From contig NZ_JAMXWN010000001.1 of NCBI RefSeq assembly GCF_024125425.1, positions 62,001 to 126,000 on the forward strand: DNA of 64,000 nucleotides. The letters are read 5' to 3'. The notes beneath the pieces are model-generated. The model did no database searches, had not been told where the DNA came from, and saw only the letters and a list, made by a program, of their open reading frames with translations. Positions 19,270 through 29,570 of the stretch are shown here, in pieces. The first letter of the stretch is position 1. Each line of letters begins with the position of its first letter. The stretch is from Sporolactobacillus kofuensis. GTDB taxonomy: Bacteria; Bacillota; Bacilli; Bacillales; Sporolactobacillaceae. A program made the translations under genes and the position numbers.

Positions 19270-21256
19270 ATTTCTTATGATTTTCTTCAGGTTTACCATA
19301 ATTAGAATCGGGTTGGATTTTCTGATCTGTATTGTAATTAATCTTTGAAATATCCGGTGGTACAAAGCCCTTTGGTTGGTAAAAGCGAAGTAAATCGCCC
19401 AAAATGACTTTATCTGAGTAATCGAGCTCTTTCTTTGCAAGACGCTCATAAGGCTTTCCGAGTGATGCAGAAGTCTTATTACCGGTGTTATTATCATAAA
19501 CGACACCACCGACAATTGAGTATTTATTCGTTATCACATCACCATTACGGAATGGAATAATTTGTCTATGCTGCTTCGAGAATAAATCTGTCCCGAATTG
19601 AATGTAATTCTTGGTGTTGATACCGAGTAAGCTCATTAAAGTTGGACGAACATCGACTTCACCGCCGTAAGTTGATACGGTTCCGCCGGCAACCTTTGGT
19701 ATATGAATGAACAACGGTACACGTTGGAGCTGTGCGTTCTCGAAAGGTGTAATTTGATCTTTTCCAAGTACTTTTGCCATCGCATCGTTATGATTTTCGG
19801 ATAATCCGTAATGATCACCGTACATAATAATAATCGTTTTATCAAAGAGGCCTGCTTTTTTCAGATCTGTAAAAAATTGTTCAATGGCTTGATCCATATA
19901 ATTGGCAGATTGAAAATAGTTATTGACAACACTGTCACCAAAATCACCCGGTTGGAAATTGGTATCTTCTTTATCCATTCCAAAAGGAAAATGGTTCGAT
20001 AATAGAATCAACTTGCTGTAAAAGGGTTGCTTTAAGTTGCTTAGATAAGGCATCGTTTCCTTCAGGAATGGCTTATCTTTCATGCCGTAATTCTTCGTGT
20101 TTTTGGCACTCATGTCATAGTACTTAGCATCGAAAAACCGTTCATAGCCAAGTGATTTATACATTTGATCTCGATTCCAGAAGGATTTTACATTGCCATG
20201 AAAAGCAGCTGTCTCATAACCGCGTTGGTTCATAATTGCTGGAGCAGCCTGATATGTGTTAAACCCTTTCATTTGAAAAACAGGACCCTGAGAAAGCGGA
20301 AATAATGAATTTTCCATCATAAATTCAGCATCAGACGTCTTACCCGATCCGGTCTGGTGAAAGAAATTTTTAAAATAAGTCGTATTATCTTTTCCTGTTG
20401 TCAATTTATTTAGAAACGGTGTCACTTCTGTTCCATCAGGCATTTTGTAATTAATAATGAAGCTTTGCAGAGACTCAAGTGAGATATAGATCACATTCAT
20501 CCCTTTGCCCTTTGCATAATAGTTTGAATTCGGCTTAGCAAAATTCGACTTTGTAAAATTTTGAATATCATTAATGTCGCTACTATCAGCCATTGCGCGC
20601 TGAGCATTCGAACGTGCATTTTGGATGGCATCATAGATTGCAAAGTTATATGCACCTAAATATTTGACAATATAGTTTCGGTCAAAGGTCCTGCTTAGTA
20701 ATTCCGGACGATCTGTCTCAGCTAAACTTAAATTAATAATGAAGACCATCACAGCAGAAACAAAGACAGTAAAAATAGTGCGAATGTTCCACCGCTCTGT
20801 TGTAGGCTTGACAACTTTGAAAACAATAAGAGCAGCAATAATGATCGTATCTGTAAAAAACAGAAGATCATAAGGTTTCATAAGTGAAAGTACGCTTCCA
20901 CCCAAATCGCCTGCATTTCCTGTTGACTGAGTCATTGTTGAGAACGTAATAAAATCATTGAAAAATCTGTAGTAAACAATATTTGCATACAACCAAAATG
21001 AAAGGATGAAACTGATTAATACCATTAATGATTGTTGTAATTTTCCTTTAAAGATGATCGCAATCCCAAGAAATAAAAGAGAAGAACTGAGTGGGTTCAT
21101 GAATAGAAGAAATTGTTGCATGTGATCATTTACACCAAGATTAAACTGAGTGAGATAGATCACGTATGTTTTCAGCCAGAACAAAATGACTGTGAGCAAA
21201 AATAACGCATATTTCTTGTTCACAAAGCGATGCCCCACAGTAAAAAGTTGTTTCAA
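19268..21256 (-). CDS. ltaS: Lipoteichoic acid synthase (LtaS family)
   Basis: Membrane sulfatase-fold enzyme that polymerises glycerol phosphate from phosphatidylglycerol into lipoteichoic acid on the outer face. The 662-residue protein has five membrane helices in the first 180 residues, then the extracellular domain with metal-binding E261 (ISLES), catalytic T307 in HQTGSGKTSD, and GDHYG near residue 480. Start is TTG 21256 with GGGAGG 9 bases upstream. A TATAAT box lies about 90 bases upstream on the minus strand. Together with tagDBF this shows both classes of teichoic acid. Confidence 0.93.
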   Translation of the reverse strand: MKQLFTVGHRFVNKKYALFLLTVILFWLKTYVIYLTQFNLGVNDHMQQFLLFMNPLSSSLLFLGIAIIFKGKLQQSLMVLISFILSFWLYANIVYYRFFNDFITFSTMTQSTGNAGDLGGSVLSLMKPYDLLFFTDTIIIAALIVFKVVKPTTERWNIRTIFTVFVSAVMVFIINLSLAETDRPELLSRTFDRNYIVKYLGAYNFAIYDAIQNARSNAQRAMADSSDINDIQNFTKSNFAKPNSNYYAKGKGMNVIYISLESLQSFIINYKMPDGTEVTPFLNKLTTGKDNTTYFKNFFHQTGSGKTSDAEFMMENSLFPLSQGPVFQMKGFNTYQAAPAIMNQRGYETAAFHGNVKSFWNRDQMYKSLGYERFFDAKYYDMSAKNTKNYGMKDKPFLKETMPYLSNLKQPFYSKLILLSNHFPFGMDKEDTNFQPGDFGDSVVNNYFQSANYMDQAIEQFFTDLKKAGLFDKTIIIMYGDHYGLSENHNDAMAKVLGKDQITPFENAQLQRVPLFIHIPKVAGGTVSTYGGEVDVRPTLMSLLGINTKNYIQFGTDLFSKQHRQIIPFRNGDVITNKYSIVGGVVYDNNTGNKTSASLGKPYERLAKKELDYSDKVILGDLLRFYQPKGFVPPDISKINYNTDQKIQPDSNYGKPEENHKK

Positions 21257-21555
21257 TTGTATTAACCTCCCGGAATCAAACGAAAATTGATCGTATAAGG
21301 TTTAGAAAAAATTCAGAAATAGATATCCTTAGAATAAGGCTAAATTATATCATAATCGATATGTTAGCGTCATGTAAAAAGTGTGTAAAAAAAAAGACAT
21401 CAAAACCTTCAATAATTCTAAATCTTTTCCCCTAAAAGTCAAGTTAAGGGCGCTGTACAGTAAGGCTCGTTTTTATTTTTATGGTGTTGATTTTTGTATT
21501 ATATAGGAAAGAAGTTGAATTATTGTTTCAATGGAGAAGAAAATTATTCATTAAA
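21257..21555. other. AT-rich intergenic region upstream of ltaS
   Basis: Holds the likely ltaS promoter (minus-strand TATAAT at about 21338-21343 with a weak -35). The rest is AT-rich with no gene I can support; a plus-strand open frame near 21481 overlaps a real minus-strand gene and has no family features. Confidence 0.4.
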
Positions 21556-21588
21556 TTGAAAAAAACAGCCAAAAAAGAGGCTGTTTTT
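21556..21588 (-). terminator. Terminator of the membrane protein gene at 21611-22114
   Basis: On the minus strand AAAACAGCC and GGCTGTTTT form a stem around TCTTTTTT, followed by further T. Confidence 0.8.
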
Positions 21589-21610
21589 CACGAGATTCTT
21601 CAGAAAGTTT

Positions 21611-22114
21611 TCACCGCATTTGAAGGCGTTTCAACTTCTGTTCATTTTTGCCGACATTCTTCATCAATGAGGGGTAGCGAAAGAGCAGCATACTGTATCT
21701 GCCAAGAAGAAATCCGGCAATGAAAATAAAATAGATTATAAAACTGGAAGCTCCTGTTAATAACGGGGTCATGAATAGATAATGGATGGAAATGAAATTA
21801 AGTGTGTATCGAATAGGTATTGAAAGAGACCAAACGAGCACAGACATCATCGATCCAGCCAAGTACCACGTACTGTCATGGTGGATAAGGGGTGTAAATC
21901 TTCCTTGTAACAGCCCAAGCCCAAACGAGAAACAGAGGGTGGTGATAAGGATGATCCAATCTATCAACGGAAGGGCTGGCATCATGGATAGAGTAAGACC
22001 TGTGAATAATAACAGCGCAAGTGGTTGTCGATAGAGTTTGCCGGTAACAGGTTTTTCTTTTAACTGATTGAAAAGAACAATCAAAAGCAAGAAAGAACCT
22101 AAGACAAGAAACAT
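21611..22114 (-). CDS. Small polytopic membrane protein, possibly CcdC/DUF1453-like
   Basis: A 167-residue hydrophobic protein with about five predicted membrane helices and a basic C-terminus (KNEQKLKRLQMR). The layout, including GLGLLQGRFTP between helices, is reminiscent of CcdC-like (DUF1453) proteins, but I do not recognise it firmly. ATG 22114 is chosen because AGAGGTGATC ends 3 to 5 bases upstream; the GTG at 22123 falls inside that ribosome site. It is a lone gene with its own terminator, divergent from the cell-wall hydrolase. Confidence 0.7.
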   Translation of the reverse strand: MFLVLGSFLLLIVLFNQLKEKPVTGKLYRQPLALLLFTGLTLSMMPALPLIDWIILITTLCFSFGLGLLQGRFTPLIHHDSTWYLAGSMMSVLVWSLSIPIRYTLNFISIHYLFMTPLLTGASSFIIYFIFIAGFLLGRYSMLLFRYPSLMKNVGKNEQKLKRLQMR

Positions 22115-22225
22115 TCGGATCACCTCTGTTGATGTGCTATATCTGTTATTTTATGACTGATCTGAATTGTCCTATTACAAGCTTTTTTAGGCGAAATTAA
22201 GCGATAATCTAAAATATTTATTTAA

Positions 22226-22242
22226 ATTACAAAATGATTACA
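22226..22242 (-). promoter_or_regulatory. WalR (YycF) binding box upstream of the cwlO-type gene
   Basis: ATTACA-N5-ATTACA, which on the minus strand reads TGTAAT-N5-TGTAAT and fits the WalR consensus TGTWAH-N5-TGTWAH exactly. A TATAAT box for the hydrolase gene is at 22341-22346, about 100 bases downstream, and the implied leader is about 95 bases. WalR is known to activate cwlO in Bacillus. Confidence 0.7.
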
Positions 22243-22448
22243 AAAGAAAACAGATAATTTTCATGGAAAGTCGAGCTAATATTACATTTATGTTTCAACA
22301 AGACATATAAGCTTAATATCTGCTATAAAAGGCGCGGTGCTATAATAAAAAAGTCGATAAAGAGAAGAACAACTTAACCTGTATAAAAGTGCAAGAGTGA
22401 ATTTACATAAAAAGAGAATGAATGTTTTGGGGAGGAACTCAGCCAATC

Positions 22449-23690
22449 ATGAAAATGAATAAGAAAAATGCTACTGTGACACTGGCACTCACGTTCGGAC
22501 TTACATACACTTCCATAGCACCTTCAGTTACATATGCATCACCATCATTAAGCAGTATTAATAAACAAACTGCTGCAAAGAAATCACTTCAAGCTCAATT
22601 GTCTCAGCGGCAACAAGCAATTCAAGATGAACTTACTTCGATGAATAAGAAACAATTGCAGTTAACCGGCGAAATTAGTGACGGGCAATCGAAAATTAAC
22701 AAGACGAACGATCAAATTGATGCATTAAAGGCAGAAGTAAAAGAAATTGAAGCAAGAATAGAAAAGCGTAAGGCCTTGCTCAATGACCGTTTGGTATCCA
22801 TCTATAAAAATGGTGGATCAGTTAATTATTTAGATGTTTTGCTTGGTTCTAAAAACTTTGGTGATTTTATAGACCGTACATTAGCGTTGACGACCATTAC
22901 GAATCAAGATCAGAAGATTATTACTGATCAGAAAAACGACCAAATGGCAGTAAATCAAAAGAAAACAAGTGTCGAAAGCAAGCAAGCAGCTAATGTTGCA
23001 CGGCTCGAAAAGTTAAAGAATACATTGAGTGAAGTTGTTGCTCTTCAAGAGAAGAAAAAAATTGCTGCTCAGGCTCTTGATAGTAAGCAAAGCAATATTT
23101 CCGATCAACTAAAAGCTTTGGTAAGTGCATCAAATGATCTCAAACGTGCGTCAATTAAGCAGGTTGCTTTCACTCCAGATAGCAGTACATCGGACAATGG
23201 GGGATCAAGTGACCAAGCATCAAGTAACCAATCTTCAAATGATAATGGATCAAGCTCTTCAAGTGATTCGAACCAATCTCCTGATGTGAACATGTCTGCT
23301 TCAATTTCATCCGGCGGTATCTCAGGTATCCTTAATTACGGTAATAAATTTATTGGCCGTTCAACCTATGTCTTTGGCGCATCCAGTCCGTCTACTGGAC
23401 AGTTTGACTGCTCTGGTTTTGTTCATGCCGCGTTTGCGGCAAACGGAATTGGTGTAGGAAGAAGCACTGGTGCTTTGGTTAGCCAAGGTAGTGCAGTAAG
23501 CTTTAGTTCTGCACGCCCTGGTGACCTTGTGTTCTTTGATACATACAAAACAAATGGACATGTTGGTATCTACCTTGGCGGTGGTCGTTTCATTGGTTCA
23601 CAAAGCAGTACAGGTGTTGCTGTGGTCAGCATGTCTAATCCGTATTGGAAATCACATTTCCGTGGCGTCGTTCGGCGAATCCTTAACTAA
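22449..23690 (+). CDS. cwlO: Secreted peptidoglycan DL-endopeptidase, CwlO/PcsB type with NlpC/P60 domain
   Basis: Exported cell-wall hydrolase that cuts peptide stems during growth. The 413-residue protein has a signal peptide ending near YASP (residue 32), a long coiled-coil domain (residues about 40-235), a Ser/Asn/Asp-rich linker, and a C-terminal NlpC/P60 domain with catalytic C321 (FDCSGF) and H371 (NGHVGIYLG). ATG 22449 follows GGGGAGGAAC; an earlier in-frame ATG at 22422 precedes that motif. The WalR box upstream and the domain order support CwlO-type function. In Bacillus such enzymes act with FtsEX. Confidence 0.88.
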   Translation: MKMNKKNATVTLALTFGLTYTSIAPSVTYASPSLSSINKQTAAKKSLQAQLSQRQQAIQDELTSMNKKQLQLTGEISDGQSKINKTNDQIDALKAEVKEIEARIEKRKALLNDRLVSIYKNGGSVNYLDVLLGSKNFGDFIDRTLALTTITNQDQKIITDQKNDQMAVNQKKTSVESKQAANVARLEKLKNTLSEVVALQEKKKIAAQALDSKQSNISDQLKALVSASNDLKRASIKQVAFTPDSSTSDNGGSSDQASSNQSSNDNGSSSSSDSNQSPDVNMSASISSGGISGILNYGNKFIGRSTYVFGASSPSTGQFDCSGFVHAAFAANGIGVGRSTGALVSQGSAVSFSSARPGDLVFFDTYKTNGHVGIYLGGGRFIGSQSSTGVAVVSMSNPYWKSHFRGVVRRILN

Positions 23691-23715
23691 TTGATTTGAC
23701 TAAATGATCATTTAA

Positions 23716-23742
23716 CACGAGCCTAATTGCTCGTGTTTTTTT
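23716..23742 (+). terminator. Terminator of the cwlO-type gene
   Basis: Stem CACGAGC with GCTCGTG, 6-base loop, then seven T. Confidence 0.88.
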
Positions 23743-23803
23743 GTACAGAAAATCAGGTAGAGCTTGAGATGACATTGAGCTAGTTAATGGTCGCTTTAAA
23801 TAC

Positions 23804-23830
23804 TGACAGTTGTCATCAACAATTGATGAC
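23804..23830. promoter_or_regulatory. Nested inverted repeats upstream of the deletion scar
   Basis: TGACA-GT-TGTCA at 23804-23815 runs into GTCATCAA-CAA-TTGATGAC at 23812-23830, a perfect 8-bp inverted repeat. It lies about 70 bases before the permease remnant. It may be the operator of the lost response regulator; that is inference. Confidence 0.5.
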
Positions 23831-23902
23831 TTCAGTGACTACCCACCCGAACACGCTCAATTTAGAATGAATTCAATAAGTTGAGTTGGGAGAGAGACAT
23901 TT

Positions 23903-24127
23903 ATGAATCTAATACCCCTAATCAAACATTTTATGCGCGTTAAAATGTATTATAAGGTTAACTTTCTTTTTACCCTAGGTGTTCCGATTGCTTCTATACT
24001 CTACTCTATGCGAGGACAATGGTTTCACCATCTGAATACGGTTGAAACAAAGGAGTCAATTTTTTATTGGATTGGCTATATGGTCGTTCTGTATGCTCTA
24101 ACAAGTACATCTTCGCCAAATAAATAA
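23903..24127 (+). pseudogene. ABC-2 type permease remnant (N-terminus only)
   Basis: The first roughly 60 residues look like the start of an ABC-2 type permease: a short amphipathic lead, then helix NFLFTLGVPIASILYSM, then YWIGYMVVLYAL. The frame ends after 74 residues, where a whole permease would have over 200. GGGAGAGAG precedes the ATG, so it may still be translated. The frame stops where sequence belonging to a response regulator begins, which suggests a deletion joined the two. Confidence 0.6.
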
Positions 24128-24374
24128 GGGGGAACGCTACATCAGTCCAGATCTTGCGGTATCATTCTTTTTTAGTGAGGAAAATCCGCCCACTGCAAGT
24201 GAGCAAGAAGTTCTAAGGCAGACACTTTCCGGATTAAGAACCCAGACAATTGCCGAAATGCTCCATCTTTCTCGTGGAACTGTGCGCAATTACCTATCAA
24301 CATCAATTCAAAAGATGGAAGTGAGCACGAGGCAAGAAGCAGCATTGCTTGCGAAAGAAAGAGGCTGGCTATGA
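24102..24374 (+). pseudogene. LuxR-type response regulator remnant (C-terminal HTH only), no start codon
   Basis: In the third forward frame the sequence reads GERYISPDLA, then ASEQEVLRQTLSGL, IAEMLHLSRGTVRNYLS and a final KERGWL before TGA at 24372. This is the linker and LuxR-type helix-turn-helix of DesR/YvfU-like response regulators. The receiver domain is missing and the frame is closed upstream at 24099, so there is no usable start. Together with the permease remnant it marks loss of a permease end, a histidine kinase and a receiver domain. Confidence 0.75.
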
Positions 24375-24824
24375 TCAGGCAAGATTAAGTGGGAAAGACC
24401 AATTCGTTTTCTTCTGCGTACTTTGCAGGTAAACAGATACTTATACTTATGGTGAAATAGTATGAAATGACCAGAAAAAGGAATTACGTATTGATTTTAA
24501 AATACAAGATCCCCATACCCTACACACGGATTCAGTACCGTTATGACAACACTCCTCAATTTCATTAAGTCACCAACACAGGAATCAATATTTTTTTAGA
24601 AATAGCTTCAAACAGATGAGAAATTGCTTGCAATGGAGGATAAATCTCTCCAATGTAGAACATGGACACGCTACCAAATAATTCCTCCTTGTGAGCCCCC
24701 TTCTTGTATACCATATACCCAATGCATCAAGAACAATGGAATGTTTTTGTCGAAAAATGTGCGAATGCTCAACCAATTAGGGAAACGGTCGCATAAGATA
24801 TGGAAAAATAGAGGGGGATGGAGT
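24375..24824. other. Intergenic region without recognisable genes
   Basis: About 450 bases between the deletion scar and a 19-codon peptide gene. Short open frames on both strands lack ribosome sites and family features. I see no convincing hairpin terminator or repeat. Confidence 0.4.
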
Positions 24825-24884
24825 ATGTTTATTCTCATTGTTGTAATGTTTATTCTCCTTGTCATTGTTGGTCTTTTCTACTAG
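24825..24884 (+). CDS. 19-residue hydrophobic YjcZ-like peptide
   Basis: A single hydrophobic helix, MFILIVVMFILLVIVGLFY, preceded by GAGGGGGAT at 24811-24819. It equals the C-terminal helix of YjcZ family peptides without the Gly/Tyr-rich head (compare the gene at 6091). Tiny membrane peptides of this type occur in spore-formers and are often sporulation genes. A terminator-like hairpin follows. The open frame continues upstream to 24624, but the ribosome site points to this short start. Confidence 0.65.
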   Translation: MFILIVVMFILLVIVGLFY

Positions 24885-24912
24885 CAAACGGTAACGATAA
24901 AAAAGGTTTATG

Positions 24913-24949
24913 AACCGGCGTTCAAATGAGATGAAATCCGGTTTTTTTG
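24913..24949 (+). terminator. Terminator after the 19-residue peptide gene
   Basis: AACCGG and CCGGTT arms about 19 bases apart, followed by seven T. Confidence 0.6.
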
Positions 24950-25146
24950 TCATGGAGATGAAGAATCACTTTTATAGGGACAGGCAGTTGTAGAGTTCAT
25001 GATTTGCAAAGAATAAAATGTCAACGAATTTTTTATGTAATGCTTCTTGAAAACTAGTGTTTAGTCGACAAAAAAACCCCATTCAGAATTTGACGGAAAT
25101 GTGTGACAATATAGGTATCTTAATTACACGAAAGGAAGTGCCTTCT

Positions 25147-25416
25147 TTGATACCAAACGTCGTCTCGTTCAAATTTAACCCGACCGAATTGAAACTGAAT
25201 AAATTTGTTGACTTTTATGGATATTGTTCTCAGTGGAATCAGAATATTTATGTATATGGTAAAAATGAGGCTCAAAAGGTTCATCGTCTGTCTGAGCTTC
25301 TATCCTTTATCTTGTTTTCTCATGACGATGAATGTCTTATCGTTATTGAAGGTAGTGGAATAAGTGAAACGAAGGAATATATCTCAAAACATATGAATGG
25401 TGTACAGACTGCGTAA
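25147..25416 (+). CDS. HPr-like domain protein
   Basis: An 89-residue protein whose second half fits the HPr-like fold: FVDFYGYCSQWNQNIYVY (helix and strand), LSELLSFILFSHDDECLIVIEG (helix then strand) and ETKEYISKHM (C-terminal helix). The phosphorylated histidine of true HPr (in a GIHARP context) is absent, so it is probably a regulatory or degenerate family member. I choose TTG 25147 because AAAGGAAGTG lies 7 bases upstream; the frame is open back to 25057 without a ribosome site. The role is unknown. Confidence 0.6.
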   Translation: MIPNVVSFKFNPTELKLNKFVDFYGYCSQWNQNIYVYGKNEAQKVHRLSELLSFILFSHDDECLIVIEGSGISETKEYISKHMNGVQTA

Positions 25417-25528
25417 TTTTACTTTCGAAAGCGATGAAATATCTGAAAATAGATCAAACAAGTGAATTATCTTTTCAATATGGTATAGTAGGAGTATTGT
25501 AAATTCATATTGAAAGGGTAGGAGTTAC

Positions 25529-26659
25529 ATGACAACACTTGAACAGATAAGGACAGCACCGATCAGTCCTGAAAATGATCCATGGGAAGCTTATTTTGAT
25601 ATGGAGCACTATGGACATTTAAAGCTGACGAATGTGGAATTTACCACGACAACGCTCTGCAACATGAGATGTGAGCATTGTGCGGTAGGCTATACCTTGC
25701 AGAAACGTGACCCGGATGCCCTTCCATTAGACTTAATTTTCCAACGTCTTGATGAAGCAAAAGATCTTCATGCCCTAAGTATTACTGGCGGAGAACCGAT
25801 GCTCTCTCTCAAGTCGGTAAAAGAATATGTGGTGCCCATCTTAAAGTATGCGCACGAGCGTGGCTTGAGAACTCAGATTAATTCAAATTTGACACTTGAT
25901 CTAGCTCGATACGAATTGATTATTCCGTATCTTGATGTGCTTCATATTTCCTTTAATTATGGGAGCTTTGAGGATTATTCAACTATTGGCTTTGCGGTCA
26001 TGGATAAGAAGCCGAAAATCGAAGCGCAAAGAATGTTTTTTGATCGTATGATTGAAAATGCAAGGGAATTAACCGCTCGAGGTGTGATCGTTTCAGCAGA
26101 AACAATGATCAACAAACGGACATTGCCTCATCTCGAACGGATTCATGAGCAAGTAGTAGAAATGGGCTGCCAACGTCATGAAGTGCATCCAATGTATCCA
26201 AGTGATTTCGCCAGCAGTCTACAGGTTGCCTCTCTTGATGAGATCCGTTCAGGGATCAATCGTTTGCTCGATTGCCGCGATCAGAATGTTTGGATGTTAT
26301 TTGGAACATTACCATTCTATCCTTGTAATAAAAATGAAGAAGATCTGGCATTGCTTGAACGTTTGTACCATGAGAAAAATGTAACTGTGCGGAATGATCC
26401 AGATGGCCGCTCTCGACTAAATGTTAATATTTTTGATGGAAATATCATTGTCACTGACTTTGGCGATGCCCCAGCATTGGGCAATATCAAAACGACAAAT
26501 CTTGAAGATGCCTATCAACATTGGTTGACAACACCTCTTGCAAAATCACTGAATTGTCACTGCCCTGCAGTTAAGTGTCTTGGTCCTAATGTATTGGTTA
26601 AGAATACGTACTATAAAGATGTTGATTTTATGAAACGGAAAGCATTGATTACGCGTTAA
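25529..26659 (+). CDS. yfkAB: Radical SAM protein YfkAB
   Basis: A 376-residue radical SAM enzyme. The 4Fe-4S/SAM motif CNMRCEHC (C-x3-C-x2-C) begins near residue 44, followed by SITGGEP. Near the C-terminus LNCHCPAVKC gives the C-x-C-x4-C motif that defines YfkAB. Substrate and product are unknown. GAAAGGGTAGGAG precedes the ATG. In B. subtilis 168 the gene was first annotated as two parts, yfkA and yfkB; here it is one intact frame. It is a single-gene unit with a strong terminator. Confidence 0.92.
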   Translation: MTTLEQIRTAPISPENDPWEAYFDMEHYGHLKLTNVEFTTTTLCNMRCEHCAVGYTLQKRDPDALPLDLIFQRLDEAKDLHALSITGGEPMLSLKSVKEYVVPILKYAHERGLRTQINSNLTLDLARYELIIPYLDVLHISFNYGSFEDYSTIGFAVMDKKPKIEAQRMFFDRMIENARELTARGVIVSAETMINKRTLPHLERIHEQVVEMGCQRHEVHPMYPSDFASSLQVASLDEIRSGINRLLDCRDQNVWMLFGTLPFYPCNKNEEDLALLERLYHEKNVTVRNDPDGRSRLNVNIFDGNIIVTDFGDAPALGNIKTTNLEDAYQHWLTTPLAKSLNCHCPAVKCLGPNVLVKNTYYKDVDFMKRKALITR

Positions 26660-26674
26660 GTCATAAGCTAAGAA

Positions 26675-26710
26675 AAAAGGTCCTTTGCTCTCATCAGCAA
26701 AGGACCTTTT
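26675..26710. terminator. Bidirectional terminator between yfkAB and the tetR-type gene
   Basis: A perfect stem of about 14 bp (AAAGGTCCTTTGCT with AGCAAAGGACCTTT) flanked by A-run and T-run, so it can serve both convergent genes. Confidence 0.9.
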
Positions 26711-26713
26711 ACA

Positions 26714-27331
26714 TTATTCAACATTCATTTTATCAATACCTAATGCAGTTTTAAGATATAATTTTAATGAATCAATTTGATTGGACGTATCAATAAGCTG
26801 ATGATTTAGGAGTGAAGCTTCCAATGCGATTCCGTCAGTCACGTTAATAAAAAAACGCGTGATCACTTCCAGAGGCTGGCAGGGAAAAAATTCACCACGG
26901 CGAACGCCTTCCTTGAAAAGCTGAAGAAAAACAGACTGACCGTTGAGATAACGCTTCGCTAAATATGCTTTTCTTTCCTCATTATGCCAACCGGAAACAA
27001 AGTATTCATAAACGGCAATTGAAAAAGGCGTATTTGCTTCCTTGGATACACTATTGAGGTATTCAACAAGCGAATCCCATATTATTCCATTTTTTTGAAT
27101 AAGTGATTGGACATAGTCGCTAAATTCTTTGGTATTTTGTTCAAGAAGCGCGCGCATCATTGCTTCCGTGCTCCCAAAATATTGATAGACGCCGCCACGG
27201 CTCATTCCGGAAATCTTAACGATGTCTTGCATGGTCGCGGGTTCAAATCCCTTTGTTGAAAAGACATCTTGAGCAGCAGCTAGAATTTGTTTTCGCCGTT
27301 CAGCAACGTGCGCCTCGGTTACCTTTGGCAT
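26714..27331 (-). CDS. TetR family transcriptional regulator
   Basis: A 205-residue regulator with an N-terminal TetR helix-turn-helix (ILAAAQDVFSTKGFEPATMQDIVKISGMSRGGVYQYF) and a divergent C-terminal ligand domain. ATG 27331 follows GAGGTGG; the earlier ATG at 27364 has no ribosome site. It follows the MFS gene after 54 bases in the same operon, so it very likely represses that pump, acting at the double palindrome upstream of it. The inducing drug or metabolite is unknown. Confidence 0.9.
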   Translation of the reverse strand: MPKVTEAHVAERRKQILAAAQDVFSTKGFEPATMQDIVKISGMSRGGVYQYFGSTEAMMRALLEQNTKEFSDYVQSLIQKNGIIWDSLVEYLNSVSKEANTPFSIAVYEYFVSGWHNEERKAYLAKRYLNGQSVFLQLFKEGVRRGEFFPCQPLEVITRFFINVTDGIALEASLLNHQLIDTSNQIDSLKLYLKTALGIDKMNVE

Positions 27332-27385
27332 GCTTATCCACCTCGTTTGTCCATAGTATAGCATAGACGAGTGAATTCATATCGC

Positions 27386-28621
27386 TTACTGAATTGTATA
27401 TTGACCACTTCCGAGTTGATTGGTTTCAGGCATTCTTCTCAATGTAGGAACAATAAGCCAATAAAGAGACACAAATACGAAGCTTGCACCGATGCTGATG
27501 AATATCGGAGCAAGACCGGCTGACTGAGCCAATTGTCCACCGATTAAAGAACCGAGCGGCATCGCACAACCTCCTGCACTGATCATGATTGTATAGATTT
27601 GTGCCAAATATTTTTGAGATACTGCCTTTTGAAGTGCAGCAACAAAAAGAATGTTCGTCATTCCTGTCGGGATTAAACTGACTGCATAAAGAATTAATGA
27701 AAGACTGTTTATTGAAGTGAAAAATGAGACAAGCCAGGAGCAACCACCCATCAGAAATCCTAGAATCACTAGATAGCCTAATGGAAATTTTTTTAATGCA
27801 GGTGCGAGAGCTGACCCGATCAGAATACCGATCGTTTCTGCAGATTGATAAAACCCATACCACTGGGGACCGCCACGCCAGGAAGCATATGCTGGCAAAG
27901 TTGCATTCAACATGCCAAATGTAAGATTGGCAACGATTGTAGCGGGAAGAAATTGAACAATAAACGAATGTCGGACGATTTGAAATCCGGATGTTAGATT
28001 ATTCCAATAGCTGCTCAAGTTATTAGTTAAAGAATATGGATGTTCGCTGGGCAGGTTTTGCTGACTTTTGTTTCGATTGATTTGAAAAAAAATTAAAATA
28101 CTGCAAATATTAAAGAAAATAGAGAGCAGGTAAATGGACAAAGGGCTAAGAAAAAGAATTAGTAAACCTGATAAACTGGTGAAAATAATTGTAAATGTCT
28201 GGTAGGTAACATTCATTAATGTATTTGCTGCTGCATAGTGATCTTCATTCACAAATTCGGGAATCAGAGACATTTCAGCAGGATTGCTGAACATTGATAA
28301 GACTGCGACGACAGGTGTAAGCAGCAATAAAGAACCTATTGAGTGCCATAATGTAGTGAATAGTAAGTAGGCCGCAATGACTGATATCACTTGGCCAAGC
28401 TCAGTCATCCATAACAATTTTTTCTTGTCTAAGTGTTCAATAAGTGGTCCAGCTAAAAATTGAAACATCATAGGTGCTAGCACTAAAAAGCTTGCCAAAC
28501 CAGTATAAAAAGTATTTTTCGTTAAATGGTAGATAAACCAAACCAGAGAAACATTGTACAAGCTCATTCCTATTGTGCTGAGTGCACGACCGGAAAGTAG
28601 CTTCCAAAAATTAATAGACAT
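27386..28621 (-). CDS. MFS family efflux transporter
   Basis: A 411-residue major facilitator with about 12 membrane helices. The start helix (WKLLSGRALSTIGMSLYNVSLVWF) and GPLIEHLDKKKLL in the first cytoplasmic loop fit the MFS_3/enterobactin-exporter-like group of macrolide or multidrug pumps. ATG 28621 follows GAGGAGCTG; the earlier ATG at 28651 does not. It is the first gene of a two-gene operon with the TetR regulator. Substrate is not predictable from sequence. Confidence 0.88.
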   Translation of the reverse strand: MSINFWKLLSGRALSTIGMSLYNVSLVWFIYHLTKNTFYTGLASFLVLAPMMFQFLAGPLIEHLDKKKLLWMTELGQVISVIAAYLLFTTLWHSIGSLLLLTPVVAVLSMFSNPAEMSLIPEFVNEDHYAAANTLMNVTYQTFTIIFTSLSGLLILFLSPLSIYLLSIFFNICSILIFFQINRNKSQQNLPSEHPYSLTNNLSSYWNNLTSGFQIVRHSFIVQFLPATIVANLTFGMLNATLPAYASWRGGPQWYGFYQSAETIGILIGSALAPALKKFPLGYLVILGFLMGGCSWLVSFFTSINSLSLILYAVSLIPTGMTNILFVAALQKAVSQKYLAQIYTIMISAGGCAMPLGSLIGGQLAQSAGLAPIFISIGASFVFVSLYWLIVPTLRRMPETNQLGSGQYTIQ

Positions 28622-28642
28622 ATAAATCAGCTCCTCAATATA

Positions 28643-28688
28643 ATGACACAAGTGTCATTATTATAAACGACACTTGTGTCATTTTCAA
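28643..28688 (-). promoter_or_regulatory. Promoter and twin palindromic operators of the MFS-tetR operon
   Basis: Minus-strand promoter: TTGAAA (28688-28683), 17-base spacer, TATAAT (28665-28660). One palindrome, GACAC-TT-GTGTC at 28669-28680, fills the spacer. The other, ATGACAC-AA-GTGTCAT at 28643-28658, lies just downstream of the -10. The two sites share the same half-site, the usual arrangement for TetR autoregulation. Confidence 0.85.
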
Positions 28689-28813
28689 CTGCGGAGATTT
28701 TTACTTGTCTAATCATTTTAAGTTTTTTTAAATGATACATTTACTCAATTTACCTATAGTAGCGAATCATGTCGAAAATTGTGTTAAGCTTTTTTTAACA
28801 TAATGAAAACGGA

Positions 28814-28841
28814 TTGTAAATTTGTCGTGTTCTGTTAAAAT
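28814..28841 (+). promoter_or_regulatory. Promoter of the DUF47-pit unit, with a nearby TTAACA-type motif
   Basis: TTGTAA (28814-28819), 16-base spacer, TAAAAT (28836-28841). Just upstream, TTAAGC-N5-TTAACA (28784-28800) resembles half of a PhoP box, but the same stretch also forms the inverted repeat GTTAA-N7-TTAAC. Repeated CTGAGAT(T)CAGTTT segments occur in the leader. Confidence 0.4.
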
Positions 28842-28949
28842 GAAGTTTGGGCTCTTTTTATTAAAGGGTAGACCTAAGAGAACTGAGATTCAGTTTCTTC
28901 TGGACGAGCTGAGATCAGTTTGTTAATTAATGATGGAGAGGTGGACTTT

Positions 28950-29570
28950 GTGCACTTTTTGTCGAAAAATGACAAGTTTTTGAACATGCTTTCAATAATT
29001 TCTTTGAATCTTGAGGAATCCGCTAAATTTTTTGATGAAAGCAAAATAAAGAATGAAGCAGATTTGCATGAATTTTCACAGAAAATGAAAAGCTTCGAAC
29101 GTAAAGGCGATTCTTATGTTCACGAACTCATCATTGCGCTAAATAAGACTTTCGTTACACCATTGCAACGAGAGGATATTCTTGAATTAGCGATGAAGAT
29201 GGATGATGTACTGGATGGATTTGAAGAATGGTCAATGGGATTGGAGATCTATGGCATATCTCACGCAGACGAATATATGGTTGAATTTGTGGGCTATCTT
29301 TATGAGTCTGCCAAAGAAATTGCACAAGCCATTACATTGATGAGCAAAAAAAATCTATCAGGTATTCGTAACAGTGTCATTAAAATTAACGATTATGAAA
29401 CGGAATGTGATGAACTGCTTGTAAAGTGCATTACTAATCTGTTTAAAAATGAAAAAGATGCAATAAAAATCATTCAATATAAAGAACTCTATGAAATGTT
29501 AGAAAGTGTAGCCGATAGTTGTGAGGATGTAGCCGATACGCTCGAGACGATTATGATGCGAAATGCCTAA
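28950..29570 (+). CDS. DUF47 (PhoU-like) accessory protein of the phosphate transporter
   Basis: A 206-residue all-helical protein of the DUF47/PhoU-like family (Bacillus YkaA), found beside Pit transporters and thought to regulate phosphate uptake. The signature MKMDDVLDGFEEW and the repeated ESVADSCEDVADTLE helix near the end are visible. GTG 28950 is chosen because AGAGGTGG lies 5 bases upstream; the frame is open back to 28920. The pit gene follows after about 150 bases. Confidence 0.88.
   Translation: MHFLSKNDKFLNMLSIISLNLEESAKFFDESKIKNEADLHEFSQKMKSFERKGDSYVHELIIALNKTFVTPLQREDILELAMKMDDVLDGFEEWSMGLEIYGISHADEYMVEFVGYLYESAKEIAQAITLMSKKNLSGIRNSVIKINDYETECDELLVKCITNLFKNEKDAIKIIQYKELYEMLESVADSCEDVADTLETIMMRNA

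Follow-up and report, generated by a model that had tools for sequence, protein, structure and literature searches.

A probable deletion pseudogene joining permease and response-regulator remnants behind a DesR-type operator in Sporolactobacillus kofuensis

Units of the YvfRSTU type carry genes for an ATPase and a permease ahead of those for a DesK-like kinase and a DesR-like regulator (PMC2588459 and PMC7157781). Examples are B. subtilis YvfRSTU, S. aureus SA1313/1314, and B. anthracis BA5598/BA5597, and the edsRSAB operon of PMC7157781 is equal in make-up to such units. Our search of PMC, outside of which subscription papers mostly lie, brought up no study of Sporolactobacillus that deals with a DesK-like system. 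Here, we analyzed a 64-kb stretch of the Sporolactobacillus kofuensis genome (GCF_024125425.1, 2.96 Mb; contig C1, NZ_JAMXWN010000001.1, positions 62001-126000), which is called the window and whose own numbering is used below. A cwlO-like gene (22422-23690, plus strand), 63-81% identical in 14 relatives and the same neighbour there, forms the upstream flank. The downstream flank consists of a 119-aa ORF conserved in the genus (25057-25416, plus strand) and a yfkAB-like gene (25529-26659, plus strand). The cwlO-like and yfkAB-like names are labels taken from an earlier note on this DNA. Between these flanks lie a 27-bp palindromic site, a 74-codon ORF, and a start-less LuxR-type helix-turn-helix (HTH) frame, all of them at the positions that the note gives.

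As the earlier note had proposed, the relatives were searched for an intact unit between the cwlO-like gene and yfkAB, and one was present in 7 of the 15 genus genomes, S. kofuensis being counted among the 15. These were S. nakayamae (G003), S. terrae (G004, with the two flanks of the unit on two contigs), S. shoreicorticis (G005), S. shoreae (G009), Sporolactobacillus sp. THM19-2 (G006), Sporolactobacillus sp. STSJ-5 (G011), and S. laevolacticus DSM 442 (G012). Each unit consists of four codirectional genes, all of them open and full-length, in the order permease (P), ATPase (A), kinase (K), and response regulator (R). In G012, they encode a 240-aa permease, a 252-aa ABC ATPase, a 370-aa DesK-like HisKA_3 kinase, and a 200-aa DesR-like protein with a receiver domain and a GerE HTH. 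In the intact units, a DesK-like HisKA_3 kinase adjoins a DesR-like LuxR regulator; the nearest PDB sequences were DesK for K (E 2e-39) and DesR 4ldz for R (E 1.5e-60). P matched none of the Pfam and NCBIfam models. Its AlphaFold2 model (pLDDT 81, pTM 0.82) gave a modest best Foldseek E of 1.1e-3 and, when compared with ABC-2 type membrane domains, was best matched by that of NosY (Z 17.6, 3.5 Å over 225 residues). P is predicted on this model to have an ABC-2/type V membrane-domain fold.

The intact unit resembles YvfRSTU and EdsRSAB in combining an ABC transporter with a DesK/DesR-like pair, but its permease gene comes first and its ATPase gene second. Furthermore, the permeases found in four yvf-like units resemble one another at 34-43%, while P matched none of them significantly (best E 0.25). 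A was only 25-29% identical to the ATPases of these four units, which are from other families, with B. subtilis YvfRS themselves outside the comparison. We then analyzed a midpoint-rooted tree of 25 K/R pairs, which covered 17 outgroup loci (G050 being without K there) and had B. subtilis YvfTU outside it. The genus pairs grouped (UFBoot 80) and joined the DUF418-linked pairs of G032 and G045 (UFBoot 100), and this set stood apart from the yvf-like plus des group (UFBoot 100). The des-linked pairs were grouped with UFBoot 100, while the three yvf-like pairs tested formed a weak group (UFBoot 48). With respect to DesKR-des, the likeness is that K is closest to DesK and R to DesR in the PDB and that the operator is of the same make-up, whereas the difference is that an ABC exporter is linked in the genus and that no desaturase target gene was found; a PF00487 desaturase was matched in 0 of the 15 genus genomes by a search whose control finds that of B. 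subtilis. The earlier note's comparison with yvfRSTU/desKR-like units therefore stands as to the kind of system, but the transporter has no clear kinship to the four yvf-like units, and the K/R pair branches apart from both des-linked and yvf-like pairs. Judged by sequence comparison, the unit is YvfRSTU/DesKR-like in kind, yet not simply either, and in the S. kofuensis window, unlike the YvfRSTU-type units, it is broken. As a side observation, in G032 (L110 2065-3225) and G045 (L111), a desKR-like pair and the same operator lie behind a gene for a DUF418-type membrane protein (Pfam-tested for G032 only), which stands where a desaturase or transporter otherwise would.

The distribution of the transporter was analyzed with a profile of P, which matched 37 of 398 genomes of the class and 11 of 145 genera, our genus included (two of the 37 genomes are genus members). 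The P N-terminus alone matched only seven genus contigs in a search of the contig database and only genus members among 58 relatives; other genera were reached with the full-length profile only. At the ten non-genus loci that were read, about 1.5 kb on each side, A follows P in every case, although in one the match was limited to the first 49 residues of A. These pairs are thus of the same permease family and the same gene order, P then A, but K, R, or a TGACANNTGTCA site was found within about 1.5 kb of none of the ten. A YcaO gene adjoins P-A in at least four of the ten, the neighbours having been searched at four only. This neighbourhood suggests that P-A may be a peptide exporter or an immunity pump. 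The P-A relatives beside YcaO-domain genes in other Bacilli genera (L123, L124, L125, and L126) possibly belong to uncharted azole-peptide clusters.

Next, we compared the S. kofuensis locus with the intact unit of G012. The first 69 residues of the 74-codon ORF (23903-24127, plus strand, from the ORF list) were 64% identical to P (E 1e-24), and the second frame was 74% identical to R (E 3e-37). Homology to P of the relatives covers codons 1-68 (23903-24106, plus strand), and the last of these, AGT, ends at 24106; the ORF then continues for 6 foreign codons to a TAA at 24125-24127. The R remnant (24108-24374, plus strand) begins with codon CAT, reads HLRQINKGERY..., and retains residues 113-200 with the LuxR/GerE HTH (PF00196, E 1.2e-12) and the stop TGA at 24372-24374; the R query of G012 had one codon before the ATG, so that its residues 114-201 are R residues 113-200. 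With respect to the P frame, that of R is shifted by +1. From the start of P to the end of R, S. kofuensis has 469 bp as against 3233-3532 bp in eight relatives (the seven with an intact unit plus G014), and the missing length measured against G012 is 2841 bp. Each remnant matches its own position in the intact unit, and the two join at a single point, 24106-24108, with an ambiguity of 0-2 nt. We read the stretch as a deletion pseudogene in which residues 1-68 of P are joined directly to R from residue 113 onward, with about 2.8 kb gone.

These results agree with the earlier note in that a permease start is fused to a response-regulator end and that the rest of the permease, a histidine kinase, and the receiver domain were lost; both remnants align to the intact unit, and the intact P-A-K-R units hold the parts in question. 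The note had further assumed that an ATPase gene stood first and was lost in addition. In the units, this gene is second, indicating that it was lost in the same deletion. The single junction that the note placed near 24100 was also found, but at the position given above, and the R part begins 21 bases upstream of the GERY from which the note had started. Two findings that would have spoken for a maintained gene pair, according to the note, were not obtained: the short ORF pair was seen in 0 of the 14 genus relatives, and reading of the HTH frame revealed no conventional start. By eye, no ATG, GTG, or TTG precedes the internal ATG at 24258, which lies inside the HTH, and the ORF list contains no plus-strand ORF of at least 40 aa covering the R frame upstream of 24258.

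The remaining genome was then searched for the missing genes. Neither K nor A had an orthologue elsewhere in S. kofuensis (best-scoring matches of 25% and 30% identity, respectively), and a full-length R was absent from the rest of the assembly, which is a draft of 43 contigs with 99.75% completeness. Relocation of the missing genes was rejected, as no A or K orthologue was found in the rest of the genome. A horizontal origin of the fragments was likewise rejected, as the flanks are syntenic and the remnants keep their original order.

The unit was also broken in other members of the genus. In G014, all four genes were recognisable but A and R were frameshifted; this is a single-contig assembly, so a sequencing error may be behind the frameshifts. 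In G002, K and R are open, P is gone, and the operator runs into A at about residue 200, and in G007, P is cut after about 43 residues. G010 shows a further, different break point, where about 30 residues of K remain, followed by bceRSAB. No unit was present at the native place in G001, G008, and G013, and G008 has P-A elsewhere in its genome without an operator site. In a genus tree based on four flank proteins, sister genomes had unlike states: G004 intact and G007 cut (UFBoot 100), G009 intact and G002 broken (UFBoot 99), and G006 intact and G014 frameshifted (UFBoot 100). S. kofuensis itself was joined to G012 by FastTree (0.98), whereas IQ-TREE gave a conflicting split (UFBoot 59). Sister pairs of opposite state, together with the different break points, indicate at least four independent breaks (S. 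kofuensis, G007, G002, and G014), or three if the frameshifts of G014 are errors. As a separate observation, a Bce-type four-gene module (bceRSAB-like: regulator, kinase, ABC ATPase, and large permease) immediately follows R in G012, G003, and G005 and the K stub in G010 (loci L067, L068, L071, and L080). It was absent from the corresponding position in the other genus genomes read, and tblastn found no trace of it in window positions 21000-29000.

We next analyzed the palindromic site, which is located at 23804-23830 on the plus strand, about 100 bp ahead of the permease start. This 27-bp sequence, TGACAGTTGTCAT-N9-ATGAC, follows the motif TGACA-NN-TGTCAY-N9-RTGAY, an inverted repeat with a third half-site nine bases downstream, and is of the DesR type; its layout resembles the description of Pdes-type promoters in PMC7726353. 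Sites were scored as ATGACANNTGTCAT over 12 positions within 300 bp of the first gene. All 10 genus loci that keep P at its native place scored 11-12 of 12, while none of three other genus loci did so (the displaced P-A of G008 and the start of K in each of G002 and G010); G002 has its operator farther upstream of the K start. The earlier note had taken two palindromes for the likely, still intact operator of the lost regulator and had asked whether they also precede intact units. They do, which supports the operator part of the claim, but the two palindromes are one tripartite operator. Outside the genus, 18 of 21 loci were fetched (G042, G043, and G046 were left out), and 14 of the 18 scored 11-12, including all 10 loci of other families in which the operator precedes a PF00487 desaturase gene that in turn precedes desKR. 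The loci below 11 were two of the four ABC-linked ones (G016 with 10/12 and G029 with 8) and two with no linked gene (G035 and G051), G035 having a 12/12 site just beyond 300 bp.

Nine of the 15 genus genomes each contained the full pattern exactly once, in every case ahead of P, and there was no control match; the operator of G005 differs by one base. In the 64-kb window, the extended pattern matched once, against 0 matches in 100 shuffles. Because the pattern was derived from the aligned genus sites, this control tells us no more than that the site does not commonly arise by chance, and the information lies in the uniqueness of the site rather than in its presence. The 27-bp site is the sole exact match in the S. 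kofuensis genome, so the lost regulator may have targeted this one site alone. The shorter core TGACANNTGTCA occurs four times in the same genome. Behind the cwlO-like gene, a terminator-like hairpin (23714-23737, plus strand; consensus match only) suggests that the P-A-K-R unit probably begins its own transcription unit.

Based on these results, we consider it very probable that a single deletion, about 2.8 kb long, in the four-gene operon P-A-K-R left this scar. Judging from the protein families, K in the intact relatives would sense the membrane state and phosphorylate R, and phosphorylated R would bind the tripartite operator ahead of P, thereby inducing the operon. The product would be an ABC-2 type exporter, with P as its membrane domain and A as its ATPase. 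The deletion removed the remainder of P, the whole of A and K, and the receiver domain of R, and joined codon 68 of P out of frame to codon 113 of R. Presumably, this out-of-frame fusion yields no regulator and at most a 74-aa permease stub; the operator and the start site remain as relics.

The age of the deletion was estimated from the remnants. Both frames are free of stops over 68 (P) and 88 (R) codons, by which the deletion looks recent compared with species divergence, or else too young for such a test. We simulated neutral evolution with as many transitions as transversions, and the chance of both frames staying open was 0.19 for 0.1 substitutions per site and 0.04 for 0.2; as indels were ignored, this gives a rough age bound only. 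The pN/pS values against G012 were 0.30 for P and 0.26 for R, within the range of other pairs, with synonymous sites near saturation. Open frames and pN/pS values like those of intact pairs fit a recent deletion, and residual constraint is also compatible with them. Of the positions that are otherwise invariant, S. kofuensis departs at 3 of the 37 in R and at 1 of the 20 in P, compared with 0-3 departures in intact members, with no relaxation of constraint evident.

The scar is known from a single draft assembly. A collapse of an intact operon during sequencing or assembly is nevertheless very unlikely: the junction is internal to a contig of 334 kb, and where the two breaks fall, the sequences of the relatives have no more than 1-2 bases in common, so that no repeat was seen that could collapse. 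Moreover, A, K, and full-length R did not turn up in the remaining assembly, and the P-A-K-R unit is broken in close relatives as well. That the two frames are instead joined by a programmed +1 frameshift, giving a small membrane-anchored DNA-binding protein, would agree with the +1 offset of an R frame that is fully open to its original stop and has kept its HTH. We regard this as extremely improbable, since the ORF pair is confined to S. kofuensis in the genus and no slippery signal was noticed by eye. In addition, the two changes L28P and R31S of R, found only in S. kofuensis, both fall in the LTxRE stretch, which is kept in the eight intact copies compared save for one T to S change.

It is also conceivable, but unlikely, that the scar is still active, with a paralogous LuxR-type regulator binding the operator and the stub or the operator having a minor role. 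The key positions of the operator are kept in S. kofuensis and also in the scars of G007 and G002, although three scars with an intact site are also expected under recent deletions. A candidate paralogue lies on contig C16 of the same genome (L085 191-4000), where a LuxR-type kinase/regulator pair and an ABC ATPase-permease pair are arranged divergently. A related TGACANNTGTCAT site opens this region, with a similar layout in G011 and G012. This site, between the two gene pairs and in front of the kinase/regulator pair, is one of the other copies of the TGACANNTGTCA core; it reads TGACATTTGTCAT, followed eight bases further by GTGAT, one base closer than in the 27-bp site. With this core site and its closer third half-site, cross-binding between the C16 system and the 27-bp site is possible, and the C16 regulator has the GTVRNY stretch of the HTH in common with R. 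However, the C16 regulator is only 30% identical to R, and its binding to the operator is conjecture. Furthermore, a search for sigma-70-type promoters in 23680-24450 gave 0 matches against 2.0 expected in shuffles, so the reading of a live promoter gains no help from it.

The scar of a single deletion is in itself ordinary gene loss with a well-resolved junction, and deletion pseudogenes are common. What makes it of interest is the lost unit, a variant within a known type of system, together with the repeated loss of that unit. The suggested link can be tested: a DesK-like membrane sensor would drive an exporter instead of a desaturase, in a genus where no desaturase was found and each genome has at most one exact operator match. 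Tentatively, and with limited confidence, we suggest that a DesKR-type lineage of the genus's own, the genus having no detectable fatty acid desaturase, has been linked via one DesR-type operator to an unrelated exporter of the ABC-2 type, akin to those beside YcaO peptide-maturation genes elsewhere. Such a unit might act as a membrane-stress-sensing module for peptide export or immunity, dispensable enough that it was broken independently in at least four lineages, and the orphan operator in S. kofuensis may be read by a paralogous regulator. The repeated independent loss offers a natural comparison of species with and without the unit.

Other small features were observed in the interval that separates the lost unit from yfkAB. 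Window positions 24810-24884 encode a hydrophobic peptide of 19 residues, MFILIVVMFILLVIVGLFY, whose ribosome-binding site is GGAG-like; the peptide is conserved at this place in 13 of the 15 genus genomes, S. kofuensis included, the exceptions being G006 and G014; its small ORF falls under the usual ORF cut-offs. In G006 and G014, yfkAB has been cut to three short pieces by internal deletions (L072 7249-7569 and L075 7001-7325). Upstream of the small ORF, at 24744-24759, lies the 16-base sequence TTTTTGTCGAAAAATG, which contains an apparent Spo0A box and has an exact copy at 28956-28971, also seen in relatives.
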